From assembly GCA_017470985.1 (NCBI GenBank), contig JAFUXA010000005.1:1-64000 (forward strand): a stretch of 64,000 nucleotides of DNA, written 5' to 3'. The notes below the pieces were generated by a model, which did not search any database, was not told the origin of the DNA, and saw only the letters and a list, made by a program, of their open reading frames with translations. This DNA comes from Lachnospiraceae bacterium (GTDB lineage Bacteria > Bacillota > Clostridia > Lachnospirales > Lachnospiraceae). Every line of letters starts with the position of its first letter. The first letter of the stretch is position 1. Of this stretch, positions 10,970 through 51,925 are shown in pieces. The position numbers were made by a program, and so were the translations under genes.

Positions 10970-12151
10970 CTATAAATATTTCTTCAAGTCATCAACCTTG
11001 TTGAGTGCTTCCCATGGAAGATCAATATCTGTACGACCGAAATGACCATAAGCTGCTGTCTTACCATAGATTGGACGACGAAGGTCAAGCATCTTGATAA
11101 TTCCAGCTGGACGAAGATCGAAGTTCTCTCTTACGATCTCAACAAGCTTCTCCTCTGAAACCTTACCTGTACCAAATGTATCTACGCGAACTGATGTAGG
11201 CTGAGCAACACCGATAGCGTATGAAAGCTGAATCTCACACTTATCAGCAAGACCTGCTGCTACAATATTCTTGGCAACATAACGAGCTGCATAAGCTGCA
11301 GAACGGTCAACCTTGGTACAATCCTTTCCAGAGAAAGCACCGCCGCCGTGACGAGCCATTCCACCGTATGTGTCAACGATAATCTTACGTCCTGTAAGAC
11401 CTGCATCACCGTGAGGTCCACCGATTACGAAACGACCTGTTGGATTAATGAAGAACTTGGTATTGCCATCAATAAGCTCTGCAGGAAGAATTGGATCAAA
11501 TACATACTTCTTGATATCTGCATGAATCTGCTCCTGTGTTACATCCTCATCATGCTGTGTAGAACATACAACTGCTTCCAATCTAATTGGCTTATCATTC
11601 TCATCATACTCAACCGAAACCTGTGTCTTACCATCTGGGCGAAGGTATGTAAGAGTACCATCTTTTCTAACCTTTGTAAGCTGAAGTGCAAGCTTATGAG
11701 CAAGGTCAATAGAATATGGCATGTATGACTCTGTCTCGTTTGTAGCGTAACCGAACATCATACCCTGATCTCCAGCACCTGTATCCAAGTCATCGCCAAG
11801 TGTTCCTTCCTTGGCCTCAAGAGCCTTGTCAACTCCCATAGCAATATCAGCAGACTGCTGATCGAGTGCTACAAATACAGCACATGAGTTTCCATCAAGA
11901 CCTTTCTTGCCATCATCATATCCGATATCAACAACAGTCTTTCTAACAATTGCAGGAATATCAAGCTGCGCCTTTGTTGTAATCTCTCCTGTTACAAGAA
12001 CGAAACCTGTACAACTTGCTGTCTCACATGCAACACGGCTCATTGGATCCTGCTCGAAACAAGCATCCAAGATAGCATCAGAAACCATATCGCAGACTTT
12101 GTCAGGATGTCCTTCTGTTACTGACTCTGAAGTAAAAATCTTCTTTTCCAT
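10970..12151 (-). CDS. metK: S-adenosylmethionine synthetase
   Basis: MetK makes SAM from methionine and ATP in the cytoplasm. The 393-residue product has full family length, with the signatures [13 protein letters not shown] near the start, [15 protein letters not shown] near residue 117, and [19 protein letters not shown] near 262. It is a single-gene unit: promoter, SAM-I riboswitch with terminator (12200-12344) upstream and its own terminator downstream, so synthesis should fall when SAM is abundant. Confidence 0.97.
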
Positions 12152-12225: not shown

Positions 12226-12248
12226 TAATTTATAAACAAATCAAATCC

Positions 12249-12344
12249 CTTATTGTTCGTTTTGCTCGCTCAGGTTGGCACCTTCCAAAATGGGGTTGCC
12301 GTGGCTTCACAGATCCTATGTATCTCCACCACTCTGAATAAGAG
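12249..12344 (-). ncRNA. SAM-I (S-box) riboswitch
   Basis: Read on the minus strand, the aptamer starts CTCTTATTCAGAG and continues GGTGGAG, then a P2 arm leading to GAAGCCACGGCAACC, AAGGTGCCAACCTG, GAGCGAGC, and the closing strand AACAATAAG that pairs with the start to form P1. These are the conserved S-box core elements. It controls metK through the terminator at 12200-12225. Confidence 0.95.
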
Positions 12345-40394: not shown

Positions 40395-40597
40395 ATCTTA
40401 TTACTTCCTATTCCCCATGGTATTTTAACATTCTATACCATTTATATATATAGTACTTTTATCCTATCTCTTCCATTGCTGGTATGATATAGTTTCATTT
40501 TCTCCAACTAATTGTATACCAATCCTTATTAAGAATAAATATACAAAGTCTTTAAGATTTCATTAAGAATTCGTCATATTACACATTTACACAATAA

Positions 40598-40642
40598 AAT
40601 AGCCACTTCTGATCCATATACTGAAAATCAGAAATGACTATT
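40598..40642 (-). terminator. rho-independent terminator of the nitrogenase-like / metNIQ operon
   Basis: A 16-bp stem (AATAGTCATTTCTGAT / ATCAGAAGTGGCTATT, two G-U pairs) with a 13-base loop is followed by TTATTG on the minus strand. It lies 46 bases after metQ. The rest of the interval 40395-40688 is AT-rich and shows nothing else recognisable. Confidence 0.85.
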
Positions 40643-40688
40643 TATCATAGTAGATTCAAAAATGAGATAATTACTTATTTATTAAAAT

Positions 40689-41531
40689 CTACTTTACCGG
40701 AATAACTGCTCCATCATACTTTTCCTGGATAAACTTCTGTGTATCCTCGTCAAGTAATGCTGCCACCAATGCCTTGATTGCCGGATTGTCCTTGTCTTCT
40801 GAACGGACTGCAATAATGTTGGCATATGGGCTGTCTGCACCTTCACTAAACAACCTGTTTGACTTGATTCCTGCCTCAAGGGCTTTGTTAGTATTTGTAA
40901 TAAAGAAATCGTAATCATCCTTTGTAGGGATAATCTGTGCAGAATCGATTTCAACAATCTTAATAGGAATCTTGTACTCTAAAATATCATCAACTGAAGC
41001 TGAGAGAGAATCCTCTGCCTTGTCATCCAAATCAATGAAACCATTTAACTCAAGAATTCTCAAAGCTCTATACTCGTTTGTTGCGTCATTTGGAATTGCT
41101 ACAACAGCGTTCTGTGGAATATCTTCCTTCTTCTCATATTTATCAGAATAAGCTGTAATTGGCTCTACATGAATTCCACCTGCATTAACAAGGTCATATC
41201 CATTGGACTCTACCTCTGAAAGCAAATATGGCTCATGCTGGAAATAATTGAAATCAATTTCACCGGCATTTAACTTCTCATTTGTTGTAGAGTCTGCTGC
41301 AGTTGATACAAGCTCAATCTTGATACCCTGCTCAGCAAGCTTTGGTGTTACATATTCAATGATTTCTGAATGTGGCACCAAATCAGCTATACCCTTTAAT
41401 ACAACCTCAGACTCTGTGGCGTCTGCTGCCTGTTCCTTGTTCTCAGTCTCCTCCGCCTTGCTTGCGCATCCTGTAAGCGCACCAAGTACTGTGACTGCTG
41501 ATAAAATAATTGCTAATGTTCTTCTTTTCAT
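40689..41531 (-). CDS. metQ: MetQ/NlpA-family ABC transporter substrate-binding lipoprotein
   Basis: This is the extracellular binding subunit of a methionine-type ABC importer, 280 residues. It has a signal peptide with lipobox ALTGC, a linker rich in E and A, then the NlpA fold: LVPHSEIIEYVTPKLAEQGI near residue 50, FNYFQHEPYL near 93, VAIPNDATNEYRALRIL near 143, and NTNKALEAGI near 212. These match the methionine-binding family, but ligand choice cannot be read directly, and relatives bind other sulfur compounds. It is last in the run D-K-H-B-metN-metI-metQ and is followed by a strong terminator. Confidence 0.9.
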   Translation of the reverse strand: MKRRTLAIILSAVTVLGALTGCASKAEETENKEQAADATESEVVLKGIADLVPHSEIIEYVTPKLAEQGIKIELVSTAADSTTNEKLNAGEIDFNYFQHEPYLLSEVESNGYDLVNAGGIHVEPITAYSDKYEKKEDIPQNAVVAIPNDATNEYRALRILELNGFIDLDDKAEDSLSASVDDILEYKIPIKIVEIDSAQIIPTKDDYDFFITNTNKALEAGIKSNRLFSEGADSPYANIIAVRSEDKDNPAIKALVAALLDEDTQKFIQEKYDGAVIPVK

Positions 41532-41613
41532 TTTCTACCTCCTGCACTTACTGTGCTATTTATATTTCTTAAATCAGTTTCCTGATATAAGTTCAAATTT
41601 ATATTTCCAAGTA

Positions 41614-42324
41614 CTATATTAAATTTCTGGTTTTCAACATCCTGTTGGATATAAGATTTCCTATACCTTGCGTTATCTGCACCAATACAATAAGTATGTA
41701 TACACATGCAAATAATCTATCATGCTGAAATCTCTGATATCCGAAGCGGACCGCAATATCACCTATTCCTCCGGCGCCAAACATTCCTGCCAGAGCTGTC
41801 ATGGAAATGACTCCAATTACTGCCACTGTAAATCCTCGAATTATAGCCGGCAGTGTCTCTGGTATAATCACCTTGAAAAACACCTGTGAATTGCTGCTGC
41901 CAATGGACTTGGCCGCCTCTATCTTACCCTTGTCAATTTCAAGAAGTGCACTCTCCACAATTCGGGCATACATAGGTATACAACTTGCAGCAATGGCTAT
42001 AATACAAGCATTGATTCCATAGGATTTACCAAATATCAGTCTGGCCACAGGAATCATCAGGATGATCATAACCATCTGTGGCAGAGATCTAAGGACATTT
42101 ATCAGCCAGCCAACAGTTGTATAAGATATGCGCTTAGGCAATAATCCATCTGGGCTGGTCAATGTCAATACAACGCCCAAAATCATTCCGAAAATCAATA
42201 CGATTATTGAAGAAATAATTGTCATATATAAAGTCTCGCCAACAGGAACAATCAATTCCTTCCATATTTCCGGATCGAATGACGCCTTAATAACTTCCCA
42301 TAAGGATGAATCCAACAAACTCAT
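41614..42324 (-). CDS. metI: MetI-family ABC transporter permease
   Basis: This membrane subunit of the methionine-type importer has 236 residues and about five helices. The coupling loop carries the EAA-like motif IEAAKSIGSSNSQVFFKVII-P near residues 130-150. Its ATG overlaps the metN stop by 4 bases, so ATPase and permease are translationally coupled. Confidence 0.92.
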   Translation of the reverse strand: MSLLDSSLWEVIKASFDPEIWKELIVPVGETLYMTIISSIIVLIFGMILGVVLTLTSPDGLLPKRISYTTVGWLINVLRSLPQMVMIILMIPVARLIFGKSYGINACIIAIAASCIPMYARIVESALLEIDKGKIEAAKSIGSSNSQVFFKVIIPETLPAIIRGFTVAVIGVISMTALAGMFGAGGIGDIAVRFGYQRFQHDRLFACVYILIVLVQITQGIGNLISNRMLKTRNLI

Positions 42325-43103
42325 ATTCCCTCTCCTTCCGAAAAACTAATATTTTGAAACTCTTGTAACACTTTGGCAAACAAAGCTCCTGTACGGCTTG
42401 TTGGATTACTGAAAATGGACTGTACACTGCCTTTTTCAATAAACTTACCATTTTCCAACACGGCCATCTGGGAACAACAGTATCTGATTGCCTCTAATTC
42501 ATGGGTAATCATCAAAATTGTTATACCGGATTTCTTGTTAATTTCTTTCAACAAATCCAGAATCTGTATGGTAGTCTGAGGGTCCAGTGCTGATGTAGCT
42601 TCATCAGATATTAATATATCCGGCTTGTTAACCAGGGCTCTGGCTATACCAACTCGCTGCTTCTGCCCGCCGGACAATCCACCGGGATATGCATCAAGCT
42701 TATCTGAAAGTCCAACCATCTCTGCAGTCTCCAAAACCCTCTTGTGTATCTCAGATTTGGACACACCACTTATCTCTAAGGGATAAGCAATATTCTTATA
42801 AACTGTTCTTGAATCAAACAGGTTAAAAGTCTGAAATACCATGCCGATTTTCTTTCTCTGCTCTAAAAGTTCGCGCTTATTCAATTTCAGAATATCCACG
42901 CCTCCCACTACGACGCTTCCGCCGTCCGGGCTTTCCAGGCGATTTATACATCTTGCCAAAGTGGATTTTCCGGCCCCACTGAAACCGATGATTCCGAAAA
43001 TCGAACCCTTCTCTACATCCAGGTCCACGCCCTTGAGCACTTCCAGTTCTCTGCCATGCACTTCAAAAGTCTTCTTCAAATCTCTTATCTCTATATAACT
43101 CAA
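42321..43103 (-). CDS. metN: MetN-family ABC transporter ATPase without the NIL domain
   Basis: This ATPase of the importer has 260 residues: Walker A GFSGAGKSTLARC near residue 39, the signature LSGGQKQRVGIARAL near 142, and Walker B ILISDEATSALD. Usual MetN proteins are about 340 residues and end in a NIL domain that binds methionine and shuts the transporter off; this one stops soon after the nucleotide-binding domain (short tail FSNPTSRTGALFAKVLQEFQ). The start is a TTG with only a weak ribosome binding site (GAAG). A perfect inverted repeat lies in the 88-base gap to the nifB-like gene. Confidence 0.88.
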   Translation of the reverse strand: MSYIEIRDLKKTFEVHGRELEVLKGVDLDVEKGSIFGIIGFSGAGKSTLARCINRLESPDGGSVVVGGVDILKLNKRELLEQRKKIGMVFQTFNLFDSRTVYKNIAYPLEISGVSKSEIHKRVLETAEMVGLSDKLDAYPGGLSGGQKQRVGIARALVNKPDILISDEATSALDPQTTIQILDLLKEINKKSGITILMITHELEAIRYCCSQMAVLENGKFIEKGSVQSIFSNPTSRTGALFAKVLQEFQNISFSEGEGI

Positions 43104-43146
43104 AACAACTTCATCGTGGTCGTATACAGTTCCACTTCTCCTTTCC

Positions 43147-43166
43147 TGATGTGCTATAACACATCA
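43147..43166 (-). promoter_or_regulatory. perfect inverted repeat between the nifB-like gene and metN
   Basis: TGATGTG-6 bases-CACATCA, a 7-bp perfect dyad with no T-run after it. It could be an operator, an RNA processing or stability hairpin that sets different levels for the enzyme and transporter halves of the operon, or chance. Confidence 0.35.
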
Positions 43167-43191
43167 TATTTTCTATTAATGATTATTTGCA

Positions 43192-44472
43192 TCAGCCATG
43201 GCTGAAGGTCTCCACTGCTTCCACATCTCTGTCCTTGTACAGTTCAGAGTGCAAATCCTTGCCCTTTCCCGGAATTCCAAGGGCATCTGCACGACAATGC
43301 TTACAATGACGGAATACCTCCAGATATTTTCCTGCCTCAGCTCGCACCTTATCAAGCATCACACAGTCCGGGGCTGGTATATCTTTCATACCATTCTGAG
43401 GAATCAATGGAATGATATTCAAAAGTGAAGCTCCAAGTTCTGATGTAACCCTGGCCACTTCTGCAATGTGATGATCATTCACACCAGGCACTAGAACCGT
43501 ATTGATCTTGATTACAATTCCTAACTCAGCTGCTCTCTTAATACCTTTTAACTGATTATTAATAAGGAGTTTCGCACCTTCTACTCCGGAAGTTTTTACT
43601 CCATTTTCATCAATTACAAATTCATTAATCTGAGCTTCAATCTCCGGATCAACAGCGTTTACTGTTACTGTAATTGTCTCAATACCAATTTCTGCTATCT
43701 CCTCCACTCTATCAAGGAGGCGGAAGCCATTGGTTGACAGACAACATATCAACTCCGGAAACTCTTTCTTCACCAGGGCAAATGTATCCAGGGCATGTCT
43801 TGTAGCCAATGTATCTCCAGGGCCGGCAATTCCAACCACTGATAACTCAGGACACAATTCCTTGGCTCGCTTGATAACATCCACTGATTCTTCCGGTTTC
43901 AGTACCAGAGAACTTACTCCAGGTCGAATCAGAGACTTGTCAAATTGTCTTGTACAGAATTTACACTGTATATTACATGCCGGGCTTACCGGTAGATGAA
44001 TTCTTCCGGCTGACACATTGGCCTCGCCACCCATACATGGATGTCTCTTTTTCAAATGTGCAAATCTAATCTCGTTCAGCTCTGTCACTTCAGCCTGAGG
44101 TCGAATATTATCCACCAGACGCTTTTCATCAATCAGCTTCACTTTGCCATATAAAATGTTATCTATGACCTCATCTATCCCTCTCTCCACATCTACAATC
44201 TGTATACCTTTGGAGCTTAAAATGCTTTTTGCTCCGGGGCCACTACATTCAGCAAATACCACGTGACAATCAATTAATCGATTTGCCACATTTTCCATTC
44301 TCACATCGTGATGCTCATGATTGAGACAAGCTTTATCCACCTCTCTTACCTCTATATAACGATAGGTCTTGTCCCCTGTATTCACTTCATATATGTCAAA
44401 TCTATCTGCCGCACCAAAATGTCTATCAATGTCTAGTCCATTACTGGATGCGAATGCTGTCTTTATAATCAT
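43192..44472 (-). CDS. NifB-like radical SAM cofactor-maturation protein with N-terminal NifX-type domain
   Basis: NifB builds the 8Fe-9S-carbide NifB-co cluster, the precursor of nitrogenase-type cofactors. The 426-residue product has an N-terminal NifX/NafY-like domain (about 1-115; AFASSNGLDIDRHFG and RFDIYEV). The radical SAM core follows: HPCMGGEA at 144-151, SPACNIQCKFC with Cys166, Cys170 and Cys173, VGIAGPGDTLA near 215, and the NifB-type end CKHCRADALGIPG. All NifB cluster cysteines are thus present. The ATG at 44472 follows AGGTGG by 5 bases; a GTG lies three codons upstream. It follows nifH by 17 bases. Confidence 0.9.
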   Translation of the reverse strand: MIIKTAFASSNGLDIDRHFGAADRFDIYEVNTGDKTYRYIEVREVDKACLNHEHHDVRMENVANRLIDCHVVFAECSGPGAKSILSSKGIQIVDVERGIDEVIDNILYGKVKLIDEKRLVDNIRPQAEVTELNEIRFAHLKKRHPCMGGEANVSAGRIHLPVSPACNIQCKFCTRQFDKSLIRPGVSSLVLKPEESVDVIKRAKELCPELSVVGIAGPGDTLATRHALDTFALVKKEFPELICCLSTNGFRLLDRVEEIAEIGIETITVTVNAVDPEIEAQINEFVIDENGVKTSGVEGAKLLINNQLKGIKRAAELGIVIKINTVLVPGVNDHHIAEVARVTSELGASLLNIIPLIPQNGMKDIPAPDCVMLDKVRAEAGKYLEVFRHCKHCRADALGIPGKGKDLHSELYKDRDVEAVETFSHG

Positions 44473-44489
44473 TGTTACCACCTGTAAAA

Positions 44490-45374
<885 letters not shown>

Positions 45375-45388
45375 CTAATCACTAAATC

Positions 45389-46723
45389 TTATCTATATGT
45401 GGCAAGTACTCTGTCATAGATATCCTCTATAGCTCTAAGTCCGCCTTCATAACCTGTATAACCACAGTTCATAATCAATCTGTACTGAACTGGAGGTGAT
45501 ACAATAAGCAAATCCGCATTAAGCTTACTTGCCAGATTCTTGTCCCATGCACTTCCGAGAATTAGTATTCTTTTGTCCTCATAATTCTTGGCATCCTCTT
45601 CCAGCTTTTTCTGAGAATTTCCTGCATCCGGATCAAATACAACTTCGATCTCTCTCTTATTTCCAAGTTCAGAAATATTTTCAAACTGATCTAATACATA
45701 CTTCTGATATTTCTCAGGAATGTCATCTACGATGAACTGTGTTCCTGGAATAATTCCAAGCTCATTTAACAGAAACTTCGAAAATCCCAATGAGTAAGAG
45801 CTGTCAGCAATTGAGTACACTCTACGAGGAATACCATATCTGAACTCCAACATGAAGGAAGCCATCTTCTCGATATGCTCATAGTATTTTGCCTCTTCAC
45901 GCTCGATATATCCCTCAACCTTGTCCTTATCCAATCCTGCGAACTCGCCAACTTCCCGCAGGAATCTGGATGTCTCTATAGCGCCGATTGGCAGGTATGG
46001 GAACTGGAGAAATGGTTGCTGATATTTCACCTTGAGATGCTTGGCAGCCTTCAATCCTACCCATGGACCAATTACAATATTGAACTGGGCATTTGGAATT
46101 GTCTTCCACTCGCTTACACCTTCTGATTCTCCGCCAAATAATATATTTACCTTCAAACCAATGTCTGTCAGTATCTTCTTAATGCCTTCCAGGTTTCCAT
46201 TCCAATATGGGTCCTGATAAGGAATAGAAGCAAATACATTTACAAGGCCTTCTACCTTCTCATCACTTTCATGGAATTTATCAACATACTGATCAATAAT
46301 GGCATTGAGTAATCTGTCATGAGCAGCGTAATTGTTGCTCTTAAAACCGCCTTCTTCCACATATACAATCGGCTTGTCTTCTTCCTGAAATTCTCCTGTG
46401 ACAGCTGCTACATCATCACCTGTTATAGCCGCTGTACAACCGGTAACTACTACGAATAATTCTCCGTCTATTACCTTGAAAGCATTCTCTATAACGCTTC
46501 TAAGTTTCTTCTCGCCGCCAAATACAACATCCTGTTCCTCTGCATTTGTACATGGAGCTGTGGAACCACCTGCGTAGCCCTCACCCTGCCCGATAATGCG
46601 ATTAACCTGCCCACCGCAGCCAGGTCCGGAATGTAGAATCGGCACTCCTTTCTTTATTGCTACAACGCTCTGATATGAACCCAGAGCACAAGTAAATCTT
46701 GGTTGTTCTATTGCCTGTGACAT
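45389..46723 (-). CDS. nitrogenase-like component 1, beta (NifK-like) subunit
   Basis: This partner of the D-like subunit has 444 residues. It keeps the three P-cluster cysteines of NifK: Cys12 (RFTCALGSYQS), Cys36 (HSGPGCGGQVNR) and Cys96 (VVTGCTAAITGDDV). It lacks the N-terminal extension of true NifK, as nitrogenase-like and NifN proteins do. The C-terminal third contains ILGSAWDKNLASKL and ends GGLRAIEDIYDRVLATYR, typical of the oxidoreductase/nitrogenase component 1 family. It lies 9 bases after the D-like gene. Confidence 0.87.
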   Translation of the reverse strand: MSQAIEQPRFTCALGSYQSVVAIKKGVPILHSGPGCGGQVNRIIGQGEGYAGGSTAPCTNAEEQDVVFGGEKKLRSVIENAFKVIDGELFVVVTGCTAAITGDDVAAVTGEFQEEDKPIVYVEEGGFKSNNYAAHDRLLNAIIDQYVDKFHESDEKVEGLVNVFASIPYQDPYWNGNLEGIKKILTDIGLKVNILFGGESEGVSEWKTIPNAQFNIVIGPWVGLKAAKHLKVKYQQPFLQFPYLPIGAIETSRFLREVGEFAGLDKDKVEGYIEREEAKYYEHIEKMASFMLEFRYGIPRRVYSIADSSYSLGFSKFLLNELGIIPGTQFIVDDIPEKYQKYVLDQFENISELGNKREIEVVFDPDAGNSQKKLEEDAKNYEDKRILILGSAWDKNLASKLNADLLIVSPPVQYRLIMNCGYTGYEGGLRAIEDIYDRVLATYR

Positions 46724-46732
46724 CGTTTTCTC

Positions 46733-48211
46733 CTATCTGCATCCGCCGCTTCGTCCACCTTGAAAATACCCTGGTTCCTGTGTCAGCCACCACTCGGTAT
46801 ATGGGTTGGATGAATGCTTCGAAAAATTCTTAATAAATTCTATTGAATCAAGTGTCTCGTCGATTCGTCTCGCGTAATTAAGTGCCCCTTGATATCCAAT
46901 TCCAAACTGCTCATCACCAATCAACAATGTCGGTATACCAAGCTTCGCTCCCCATAATGTCATACCGCCGTGTCGAGCCATAATGAAGTCCGGTTTATTT
47001 CTAATAAGTGCATTTACAAGCTCACAGCTCTGCTTGTTACATACACGGTAATCTTTGACATCACCGTAGGTATTAACTGCATGAGCCAATACATCCAGCT
47101 CTCTATCCTCACTATCGTAGATTGGATCGTGGTGGAATACGCTTGCACCAATTACTTCAAAGCCCAATTCGTTCAACAGATGTATCAAAGCCTGTCCATG
47201 AGCAGCACCTGCTGTTACATATGCTTTCTTACCTTTGAAGCGCTCCTTCAGCTTCTCGATCTGTGGCACATACTTCTCATGTCCCTCTCGAATTATTTCT
47301 TCTGCTATATCTTCCTTACCAAGAACCTTTCCCAAAGCTCTAAGCCATCCATCTGTACCATCTATTCCATAAGCTGGGGGAGCAGTTATCTCCGGCACTC
47401 CATATAACTGAGATAATCCTGCGCCCATGTATGTAGACAGTGAAGGACATATATGCACTGTTGCTGCCGCCTCACTTACATGCTCAAGCTCCTCAATAGA
47501 AGCAAATGGCATAATGTACTGAGCTTCATAACCGAATCTTTCAAATATCTCATCAAACACATGGCTTCCCCAGAAGTTGACTACATTTATCTTGTTGGTC
47601 TTCTTCTCAGGCGGCTTTACGATTCCTCTCAAAACTGTGTGATATGCTGCATCAAAACCTGTTGTCCATACCTTTGATCTAAATCCTTCGCAGGAACATG
47701 TAACCACTGGAATTCCCAGCTCCTCTGTGGCTTTATCAGCTACAGATTCAATATCCTCTCCAATAATTCCTGATGCACATGAGGTTGTGATAAATATTGC
47801 CTTGGGATTAACTCTCTCGTAAGCAAGCTTTATTGTCTCCTCCAATTTCTTGGTGGCACCGAATACTGTGTCCTTCTCCTGAATGTTGGTTGAGAAATAT
47901 CTTCCAATATCCTCTGGCAAATCTCTCTTATCCTGCTCAATTCTATAAGTGAAGTTGAAATCTGCAAACTCTCCGGCACATCCTATAGGTGCATGATTTA
48001 TTACTGCCACATCCTTTATCATTGCCAACTGGCAAAAGGCCTGCTGGGCATTACATCCCAAACACTGTGAAAATTTTCTTTTTGCATCACGCAATGTTCC
48101 ATCCTGAGATTGCTGTACAATCTCTGCTGCTGTTCCGGTAAATGCATTTATTGTTCCAAGTCTTTTCTCTCGTATCATTACGCTTGGCTCTGCTAAATTA
48201 ATGGATGGCAT
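46733..48211 (-). CDS. nitrogenase-like component 1, alpha (NifD-like) subunit
   Basis: The 492-residue protein is the presumed catalytic subunit. P-cluster cysteines are Cys50 or Cys53 (SQCLGC), Cys78 (INHAPIGC) and Cys145 (TTSCASGIIGEDI). Cys255 (VHICPSLSTYMG) lines up with cofactor ligand Cys275 of NifD. By hand alignment on CEGFR, nitrogenase Gln191 is Trp182 and His195 is Phe186; His442 lines up with Gln441 (IGYQGALNYARR). The product is therefore nitrogenase-like but probably not for N2. It starts the operon D-K-H-B-metNIQ; GGAGG lies 7 bases upstream of the ATG. Confidence 0.88.
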   Translation of the reverse strand: MPSINLAEPSVMIREKRLGTINAFTGTAAEIVQQSQDGTLRDAKRKFSQCLGCNAQQAFCQLAMIKDVAVINHAPIGCAGEFADFNFTYRIEQDKRDLPEDIGRYFSTNIQEKDTVFGATKKLEETIKLAYERVNPKAIFITTSCASGIIGEDIESVADKATEELGIPVVTCSCEGFRSKVWTTGFDAAYHTVLRGIVKPPEKKTNKINVVNFWGSHVFDEIFERFGYEAQYIMPFASIEELEHVSEAAATVHICPSLSTYMGAGLSQLYGVPEITAPPAYGIDGTDGWLRALGKVLGKEDIAEEIIREGHEKYVPQIEKLKERFKGKKAYVTAGAAHGQALIHLLNELGFEVIGASVFHHDPIYDSEDRELDVLAHAVNTYGDVKDYRVCNKQSCELVNALIRNKPDFIMARHGGMTLWGAKLGIPTLLIGDEQFGIGYQGALNYARRIDETLDSIEFIKNFSKHSSNPYTEWWLTQEPGYFQGGRSGGCR

Positions 48212-48260: not shown

Positions 48261-48297
48261 ATTATATCCTCAGAGTTAAGCCTTGTATAATACATGG
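48261..48297 (-). promoter_or_regulatory. promoter with overlapping palindrome before the nitrogenase-like operon
   Basis: TATAAT (48266 to 48261) has a weak -35, TATACA (48289 to 48284), at 17 bases. The -35 lies inside a near-perfect palindrome CCTTGTAT-A-ATACATGG (48281-48297; 7 of 8 positions symmetric). This suggests a regulated promoter, but the regulator is unknown. Confidence 0.5.
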
Positions 48298-48340
48298 TTA
48301 CTATTGCCCGTTATAAATAATATTTATCACAAAACAAAAA

Positions 48341-48372
48341 ATCCTGAGCAGTAACACCTACTCAGGATTATT
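48341..48372 (-). terminator. rho-independent terminator after the nitroreductase gene
   Basis: AATCCTGAG and CTCAGGATT form a perfect 9-bp stem with a 12-base loop, followed by TTTTG on the minus strand. It separates the nitroreductase gene from the nitrogenase-like operon. Confidence 0.88.
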
Positions 48373-50779: not shown

Positions 50780-51925
50780 TTAATACTCATCCAGAAAATG
50801 ATGACGCTGACCATGCTTCTTATAAGCAATAACTGTATCTACATTAACATTTTCTACGCTCTTGAAAATGTTGGACTCCACATAAGGGTTGACCTCCTTA
50901 AGTTGAGCAATCAATTTCTTGGTCTCAAGACGCTTTGATGAAGTCGTTCCATCCTCGTGACAAGTTGAACAAGTATCTGTAAAATGGCATGCGCATTGTA
51001 AGAAATGTAAATTGTTATAATCGCGCCATGCACATATGTCACTTTCTCTCACCAGATAGAGAGGACGGATAAGCTCCATTCCCTCAAAGTTGGTACTGTG
51101 AAGTTTCGGCATCATGGTCTGAACCTGTGCGCCATATAACATGCCCATAAGAATTGTCTCAATAACATCATCATAATGATGTCCAAGGGCAATTTTGTTG
51201 CAGCCCAACTCCTTGGCCTTGTTATATAGATAACCTCTGCGCATTCTGGCGCATAGATAGCATGGATTCTTGTCAATGGTATCTACCGCATCGAAAATAT
51301 CACTTTCGAATATTGTAATTGGAATGCCTAAAGCCTTGGCATTGCTTTCTATCAATGCTCTGTTATCCTTGTTATAACCCGGATCCATTACCATAAATGT
51401 CAATTCAAAATTGCACTGTCTATGCTTCTGTATCTCCTGAAAGAGCTTCGCCATAAGCATAGAATCCTTGCCGCCTGAGATACATACCGCAATATGGTCT
51501 CCCTCTTCTATAAGTCTGTATGTCTTGCAGGCTTTGGCAAATGGTGTGAAAAGCTGCTTGTGAAACTTCTTCTGAATGCTCCTCTCCGCACGCTCTCTGC
51601 GCTCTTCCAAAGAACTGTCCTCAGAAACCTGGGCACACACATATCCCGTGTAACCACCCTTTAGACTGTAGCACTCTCGACCTTTAAGTATATCTGTCAC
51701 ATCCATGTCTCTGGTCTTTCTGCCAAAATCACAATAGAAAACCAATTTCTTGTCTGCAGGAATGGCCTCTATTGCTGATATTGTCTCCTCTGTCATCTCA
51801 TCCATAGATATAGCTATAGCCCCAGGCATCATACCGTATTCCCTGGCATTCTCATCTCTGATATCTATGAATACATATGCATCTTCAGGTAATTGTTCCA
51901 ACCTGTCTAATGTAATCTCAATCAT
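50780..51925 (-). CDS. rhodanese-TtcA fusion, probable tRNA thiolation enzyme
   Basis: The 381-residue protein joins a rhodanese domain (about 1-110) with the active-site Cys in KLVFYCDFGRKTRD to a PP-loop ATPase (about 130-381). The PP-loop is AVCISGGKDSMLMAKLF, followed by PGYNKDN, the pair CYLCARMRRGYLY, LGHHYDDVIETILMG, and a cysteine-rich end (CACHFTDTCSTC). TtcA-like enzymes thiolate tRNA cytidine 32. Rhodanese would supply persulfide sulfur on the same chain (inference). The gene is alone between two intergenic gaps. Confidence 0.85.
   Translation of the reverse strand: MIEITLDRLEQLPEDAYVFIDIRDENAREYGMMPGAIAISMDEMTEETISAIEAIPADKKLVFYCDFGRKTRDMDVTDILKGRECYSLKGGYTGYVCAQVSEDSSLEERRERAERSIQKKFHKQLFTPFAKACKTYRLIEEGDHIAVCISGGKDSMLMAKLFQEIQKHRQCNFELTFMVMDPGYNKDNRALIESNAKALGIPITIFESDIFDAVDTIDKNPCYLCARMRRGYLYNKAKELGCNKIALGHHYDDVIETILMGMLYGAQVQTMMPKLHSTNFEGMELIRPLYLVRESDICAWRDYNNLHFLQCACHFTDTCSTCHEDGTTSSKRLETKKLIAQLKEVNPYVESNIFKSVENVNVDTVIAYKKHGQRHHFLDEY

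Follow-up and report, generated by a model that had tools for sequence, protein, structure and literature searches.

A stretch of 64,000 nucleotides from the Lachnospiraceae bacterium contig JAFUXA010000005.1 (the window; its genome, G000, is an assembly 88.8% complete) contains a seven-gene operon, in which four nitrogenase-like genes are followed by a methionine-type importer. Judged from sequence comparison, the operon very probably encodes a reductase of carbon-sulfur (C-S) bonds that serves sulfur salvage in a rumen-type bacterium, and not nitrogen fixation. A first-pass annotation had described the run D-K-H-B-metN-metI-metQ and had proposed a reductive sulfur-salvage role like that of the methylthio-alkane reductases (Mar), possibly on a new substrate. 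We recovered the run on the minus strand at the positions listed below, its families being assigned by Pfam and NCBIfam (Oxidored_nitro twice, Fer4_NifH, NifX-like plus radical SAM, and MetN-, MetI- and MetQ-like). The proposed role is supported by Mar-type ligands, by the failure to find NifEN-type genes, by a conserved sulfur neighbourhood and by a recurrent metNIQ with a MetQ clade of its own. The genes are, in the order of transcription:

46733-48211, minus strand: D, NifD/MarD-like catalytic subunit, 492 aa (Pfam/NCBIfam, structure-sequence match)
45389-46723, minus strand: K, NifK/MarK-like subunit, 444 aa (sequence match to MarK)
44490-45332, minus strand: H, NifH-type Fe protein, 280 aa (NCBIfam)
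43192-44481, minus strand: B, NifX-like domain fused to a NifB-type radical SAM enzyme, 429 aa (Pfam/NCBIfam)
42321-43103, minus strand: MetN-like ABC ATPase, 260 aa, TTG start as listed (Pfam/NCBIfam)
41614-42324, minus strand: MetI-like permease, 236 aa (NCBIfam)
40689-41531, minus strand: MetQ-like (NlpA family) lipoprotein, 280 aa (Pfam, MetQ tree)

From D to metQ the intergenic gaps measure 9, 56, 8, 88, -4 (an overlap) and 82 bases. The earlier statement that no terminator separates the seven genes also holds, as a scan of the coding strand from D to metQ gave only a five-pair match inside metQ.

In sequence searches against solved structures D matched MarD with an E value of 1e-126 (best nitrogenase 4e-37) and the best match of K was MarK (9e-116); the identity of D to MarD of Rhodospirillum rubrum is 44%. 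Residue numbering and roles in MarD and MarK were taken from PMC12552129. In the alignment Cys53, Cys78 and Cys145 of the window D correspond to the P-cluster residues Cys66, Cys91 and Cys158 of MarD, and Cys12, Cys36 and Cys96 of the window K to Cys32, Cys56 and Cys121 of MarK, so that all six Mar P-cluster cysteines are kept. Cys255, Arg413 and His414 of D correspond to the MarD [Fe8S9C] ligands Cys270 and His429 with the loop I residue Arg428. This Arg-His hallmark is present in 57 of the 58 rows of the window's clade in the D tree described below (clade A), the remaining row having a gap. MarD Trp195 and His375 are also kept, and His194, which sits at the S2B site of the cluster (PMC12552129), is replaced by Val181. 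The use of His194, Trp195 and His375 as a Mar criterion for the S2B pocket is our own choice; PMC12552129 does not call this trio defining. The His194 position is occupied by His in seven of seven Mar-clade sequences (four and three in two comparisons) and by other residues in all 58 clade A rows (Ile 28, Val 24, Met 5, Leu 1). Under the thresholds set, Mar and clade A rows were separated at 21 positions, two of them gaps, and the window shows the Mar state at one; at His194 and five more positions the Mar rows share no residue with the rows assigned to clade A. As far as alignment tells, the predicted pocket of clade A is changed and its cluster ligands are unchanged.

In a D tree of 106 rows the window falls into the 58-row clade A, beside the Mar clade and apart from the Nif rows. 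A more careful D tree of 46 rows supported the window's two main subclades with 97/93, the same together with a small basal pair with 89/85 and the Mar clade with 100/100. A K tree of 53 rows agreed, giving 100/100 both for the main clade and for Mar, and 89/86 once the basal pair was included. Both subunits are placed outside the true nitrogenases and next to, not within, Mar, which agrees with the nitrogenase-like character claimed for them by the first-pass annotation. The window H was close to nitrogenase NifH in a tree that held no MarH, and for this reason D and K were used for the grouping. A Mar ortholog and a clade A member occur together in Paenibacillus sinensis (G251), Ruminiclostridium cellobioparum (G253) and G320, and both kinds lie within one locus in L106 and L087 and, by identity, in L272 (G443). 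Because of this co-occurrence the two kinds are best seen as paralogs. In the trees the window D and K are members of a sister clade of Mar and not Mar orthologs. The branching is less than fully certain, since the approximately unbiased (AU) test on D did not reject the best tree joining Mar with the window's subclade (p 0.0707).

These data bear on the simplest alternative, namely that the operon encodes an ordinary methylthio-alkane reductase acting on the R. rubrum substrates 2-methylthioethanol, dimethyl sulfide and ethyl methyl sulfide, with metNIQ as a co-regulated methionine uptake system. Such an enzyme would be expected to keep every Mar cluster ligand and the Arg-His hallmark and to have Mar as the closest solved relative of D and K; the AU test on D alone leaves room for it, and volatile substrates require no importer. 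We nevertheless consider it rather unlikely, as the D and K clades are separate, Mar and clade A are present in the same genomes, His194 and the five further positions do not overlap between the sets and the linked MetQ belongs mostly to a distinct clade. Moreover, metNIQ is found in none of the four Mar-type loci without an adjacent clade A member (L172, L173, L270, L271; an MccB-type gene is present in one, L271), though L087, which holds both kinds, does have metNIQ. Owing to the paralogy and the pocket change, we prefer a sulfur-salvage C-S reductase whose substrate is probably not simply that of Mar.

H has the P-loop GKGGIGKS, Cys94 and Cys129, scores 451 bits against the NCBI nifH cut-off of 394 and is the only close NifH in G000, G139 and G252. 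B consists of a NifX-like N-terminal domain (residues 17-108) and a NifB-type radical SAM domain; its score of 312 bits with the NifB model is under the cut-off of 344, and NifB is still the nearest family. Of six motifs which we take to be the NifB signature, five were found in B (HPC, CX3CX2C, AGPGD, TxTxNAV and CX2CRxDAxG) and ExRP was not. The NifX-NifB fusion is shared by the window and ten loci among its nearest relatives (L050, L070-L077, L079); 46 further loci that have a B-type frame did not show it, and the long frame of L089 matches the radical SAM part alone. NifE and NifN, which had been reported as absent from the window, are missing more widely: the window assembly has only two PF00148 genes, and exactly two were also found in G139, G252 and G255 (four in G256). 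At the given completeness, the absence from the window assembly alone would be weak, and the same result in the relatives strengthens it.

Another alternative is an unusual nitrogenase that can do without NifEN; such a claim exists for the group IV enzyme of Endomicrobium proavitum. Incorporation of 15N2 by E. proavitum has been reported, as cited in PMC9147875, PMC4995403, PMC8399215 and PMC11257099, and an Endomicrobium metagenome-assembled genome (MAG) carries a clade A D (L132). Against this stand the nitrogenase residues Val70, Gln191 and His195 of NifD, which are replaced in the window D as they are in Mar, and His442, for which no equivalent was seen in comparison with the Nif rows. Homocitrate synthase (NifV, TIGR02660) gave no match over the cut-off in five of five genomes, though none of 14 control genomes passes either. 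Sulfur genes neighbour the operon, also at the Endomicrobium locus L132, and the MAG containing L132 has a separate NifD-type gene. We therefore regard nitrogen fixation by this operon as very improbable.

The genomic neighbourhood was compared in the best 80 of at least 546 loci from named genomes, each at least 51% identical to the window D in the best segment. The loci derive from Clostridia, Paenibacillus, Sporomusa and its kin, Coriobacteriales, Spirochaetes, Synergistaceae and Endomicrobium. The controls were 40 stretches, each of 20 kb, drawn from carriers and their relatives; the 80 loci were shorter, with an average of 17 kb. Neighbour families were named on representatives only, several of them under the curated cut-off, and length served to tell the O-acetylhomoserine sulfhydrylase (OAHS) type from the MccB type. 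The linkage of D-K-H-B to metNIQ, on which the first-pass annotation had built, recurs elsewhere, as complete metNIQ is present in 22 of the 80 loci and in none of the 40 controls. MetQ lies near D in 25 loci (0 controls), the OAHS type in 36 (0), the MccB type in 38 (0), one or the other of these two enzymes in 51 (0) and the CysK type in 35 (2). Less frequent are the LysR type with 21 (3), the Rrf2 type with 13 (0; its representative is CymR-like) and the PatB type with 6 (1). Any of five methionine/cysteine (sulfur) enzyme types was found in 58 of the 80 loci versus 3 of the 40 controls, and none of the neighbour types counted occurs at three true nif loci of the same family. Butyrivibrio sp. 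MB2005 is the nearest named genome among the matches listed, which may omit records very close to that of the window, with a D 91% identical to the window D; in its locus (L070), LysR-CysK-MccB faces D-K-H-B-metNIQ-CysK-LysR.

Genes of the sulfonate binding protein type, instead of or besides metNIQ, stand beside 19 of the 80 loci (one of the 40 controls), and Isr has been reported from gut bacteria (PMC11423573). Both points would suit an Isr-type sulfonate reductase with sulfite as its product, which we hold to be highly unlikely for the window. IsrD has one of the three cluster cysteines and is without the cofactor cysteine (PMC11423573), whereas the window D keeps all of them; rows L044-L046, called Isr-like by their cysteine loss with no Isr sequence itself compared, group away from clade A in the 106-row tree, and the window B is nearest to NifB. 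In addition, the sulfite/nitrite reductase domain PF01077 was not found in four of five genomes (G000, G139, G252, G255). A sulfite-releasing enzyme would thus be of little use in the window genome, and a thiol or sulfide product is favoured. Several cysteine/methionine pyridoxal phosphate enzymes are encoded elsewhere in this genome.

The MetN-, MetI- and MetQ-like proteins of the operon, which together provide ATPase, permease and lipoprotein, are all under the NCBIfam cut-offs of the methionine models. In a quick MetQ tree of 54 rows, 26 of the 33 linked rows and that of the window form one clade (SH-aLRT 99) with 2 of the 19 unlinked rows. Here "linked" means inside the stretch fetched around the D gene, and as the genomes with unlinked MetQ were chosen mostly for having the linked form, the comparison is one of copies within carriers. 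The window genome itself has a second MetQ unlinked to the operon. Position 216, three residues after the conserved Asn213, is Lys in 24 of 30 clade rows and Tyr in 21 of 23 other MetQ rows, and N84, D93, N95, H99, N152, R155, N213 and N238 are conserved in at least 90% of both sets. The Lys216 in place of Tyr may reflect an altered ligand preference. Whether the importer carries the substrate of the enzyme or serves another purpose appears evenly balanced to us.

Taken together, the following route would fit the operon. The MetNIQ-type importer would take up an organic sulfur compound. A thioether amino acid is the most likely candidate; both this identity and its entry through the linked importer are our reasoned guess. 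Assembly of the [Fe8S9C] cluster would fall to B, whose NifX-like part may help to deliver the cluster directly to DK without NifEN, as the anatomy of the operon and the example of Mar suggest. With ATP, H would pass electrons to the P-cluster and from there to the [Fe8S9C] cluster of D, for which the ligands are present. Reductive C-S cleavage would yield a thiol or sulfide and a reduced carbon fragment, and O-acetylhomoserine sulfhydrylase together with an MccA/MccB-type route could capture the thiol for the synthesis of methionine and cysteine. More tentatively, clade A might represent a second widespread kind of [Fe8S9C] C-S reductase. It would act on non-volatile thioether amino acids imported via a dedicated MetQ (methionine, S-methylcysteine, S-methylmethionine or a more acidic relative), feed reverse transsulfuration in Firmicutes of gut and rumen and release small hydrocarbons or amino acid remnants.

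Several observations, besides the AU result, speak against the preferred sulfur-salvage reading. The careful D tree flagged a long branch within the Mar clade, the Mar-type row of L106. Complete metNIQ was not shown in 58 of the 80 loci; together with the sulfonate-type binding protein genes this indicates that the importer may be interchangeable or only co-regulated, and seven of the 33 linked MetQ rows lie outside the MetQ clade. Genes for the last step neighbour many clade members and not the window operon, no methionine or cysteine synthesis enzyme being recognised between 36 and 53 kb of the window. G256 does have a PF01077 domain, and no riboswitch was revealed at the operon by Rfam scans, which covered the window and 21 of the 80 loci. 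Finally, the 80 loci come from related genomes and are not independent, so that Fisher values overstate the significance of the counts.

The sequences flanking the operon contain three further features:

48340-48369, minus strand: terminator-like hairpin of 12 pairs upstream of D, between the upstream nitroreductase gene and the operon (scan)
48261-48289, minus strand: promoter-like TATACA-17-TATAAT before D (consensus match only)
40560-40660, minus strand: long hairpin after metQ, z-score -3.2 (folding)

The hairpin 3' of metQ is the probable end of the operon. Promoter-like sites in the region number 26, versus a mean of 30 in shuffled sequences. An operator upstream of D was rejected for the window, where the dyad is at chance (96 of 300 shuffles as good), and there is none in L072 (297) and L075 (188); in some relatives the dyad is strong (L070 4, L071 2, L077 10 and L074 18 equally good shuffles of 300). 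In L136, one case, the Rfam scan found a T-box about 6 kb upstream of D. A SAM riboswitch is located at 12247-12344 (minus strand) of the window, more than 30 kb from the operon and immediately before a gene taken by eye for metK (10970-12151), and riboswitch control of sulfur thus exists in this organism. A few genes upstream of the operon, a fusion of a rhodanese domain and a TtcA-like PP-loop (50780-51925, minus strand) is a probable sulfur transferase.

Further nitrogenase-like genes were observed during the survey. In Candidatus Chlorohelix, a phototrophic member of the Chloroflexota (L150), a plasmid of 375 kb carries a clade A operon. Transposase genes and a gene for O-acetylhomoserine sulfhydrylase lie close to it, a setting that suggests horizontal transfer. 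Lachnospiraceae contain two further groups of nitrogenase-like D (L058-L069; L035-L039, L060, L061, L069), both of which occur in the single loci L060, L061 and L069. One of them keeps the Arg-His hallmark, the other is without that loop and has Cys replacing Trp195, and some of their loci adjoin NifS, Rrf2, PatB and CysK types. In the true nif-type NifD of the Lachnospiraceae loci L047, L048 and L049 and of L160 (Endomicrobium MAG G250), His442 is lost (PYSGF or PYAGF for PYHGF) and the cysteines are kept; loss of this FeMo-co ligand has been noted for some gut strains (PMC4995403).

A nifH survey would misread the window operon as nitrogen fixation. NifH scores nitrogenase in 23% of 501 cultured rumen genomes, yet rumen N2 fixation is said to be negligible (PMC6776011); NifH of Lachnospira and Butyrivibrio from the gut has been taken to mark possible N2 fixers (PMC4995403). 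In our sample of the family, 34 of 250 genomes have a gene over the NCBI nifH cut-off. A nitrogenase-like D of some clade is present in 26 of these, seven of them in the window's clade (at least 51% identity), three have a NifD-type gene, in two cases in addition to a nitrogenase-like D, and seven have no D match at E <= 1e-30, a limit close to the values that true NifD genes give. Sulfur metabolism may therefore account for part of the gut nifH signal.

The first description of Mar is reportedly that of North et al. in 2020. According to PMC12552129, the large clusters of nitrogenase have been described in no nitrogenase-like enzyme other than Mar. MarDK has been predicted in heliobacteria, and the group IV-A enzyme of E. 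proavitum is thought to fix N2 (PMC9147875). In Paenibacillus, nifHDK-like genes of one clade or another are reported to respond to neither ammonium nor oxygen and to fail to rescue nif mutants (PMC4246453). No paper linking clade A to metNIQ or separating it from Mar was found in a literature search in which most subscription papers were out of reach. As clade A combines the same ligands with a changed pocket and an importer of its own, its comparison with Mar would show what sets specificity on the [Fe8S9C] cluster.

Among the known systems, MarBHDK of R. rubrum (PDB 9FMG, 9D9U; PMC12552129) is like the window operon in its P-cluster and [Fe8S9C] ligands, in the Arg428-His429 loop, in Trp195 and His375, and in having its own NifB-type maturase with no NifEN-type genes found. 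The window operon differs from it by its position in a sister clade, by Val for His194, by the NifX-NifB fusion and by the linked metNIQ. IsrBHDK of Rhodobacter capsulatus (PMC11423573) likewise combines a nitrogenase-like enzyme with a radical SAM protein and an ABC importer for organic sulfur, but its IsrD is without most cluster ligands, its IsrB is nearest to BciD and its product is sulfite. With NifHDK of groups I-III the window shares the architecture of H, D and K and an H over the nifH cut-off; it differs in the replaced catalytic residues, in a D outside the Nif clade and in that no NifEN-type genes were found. Finally, the MetNIQ methionine importer resembles that of the window in its lipoprotein of the NlpA/MetQ family with eight conserved residues, whereas the linked form mostly constitutes a MetQ clade of its own, with Lys216 in place of Tyr.

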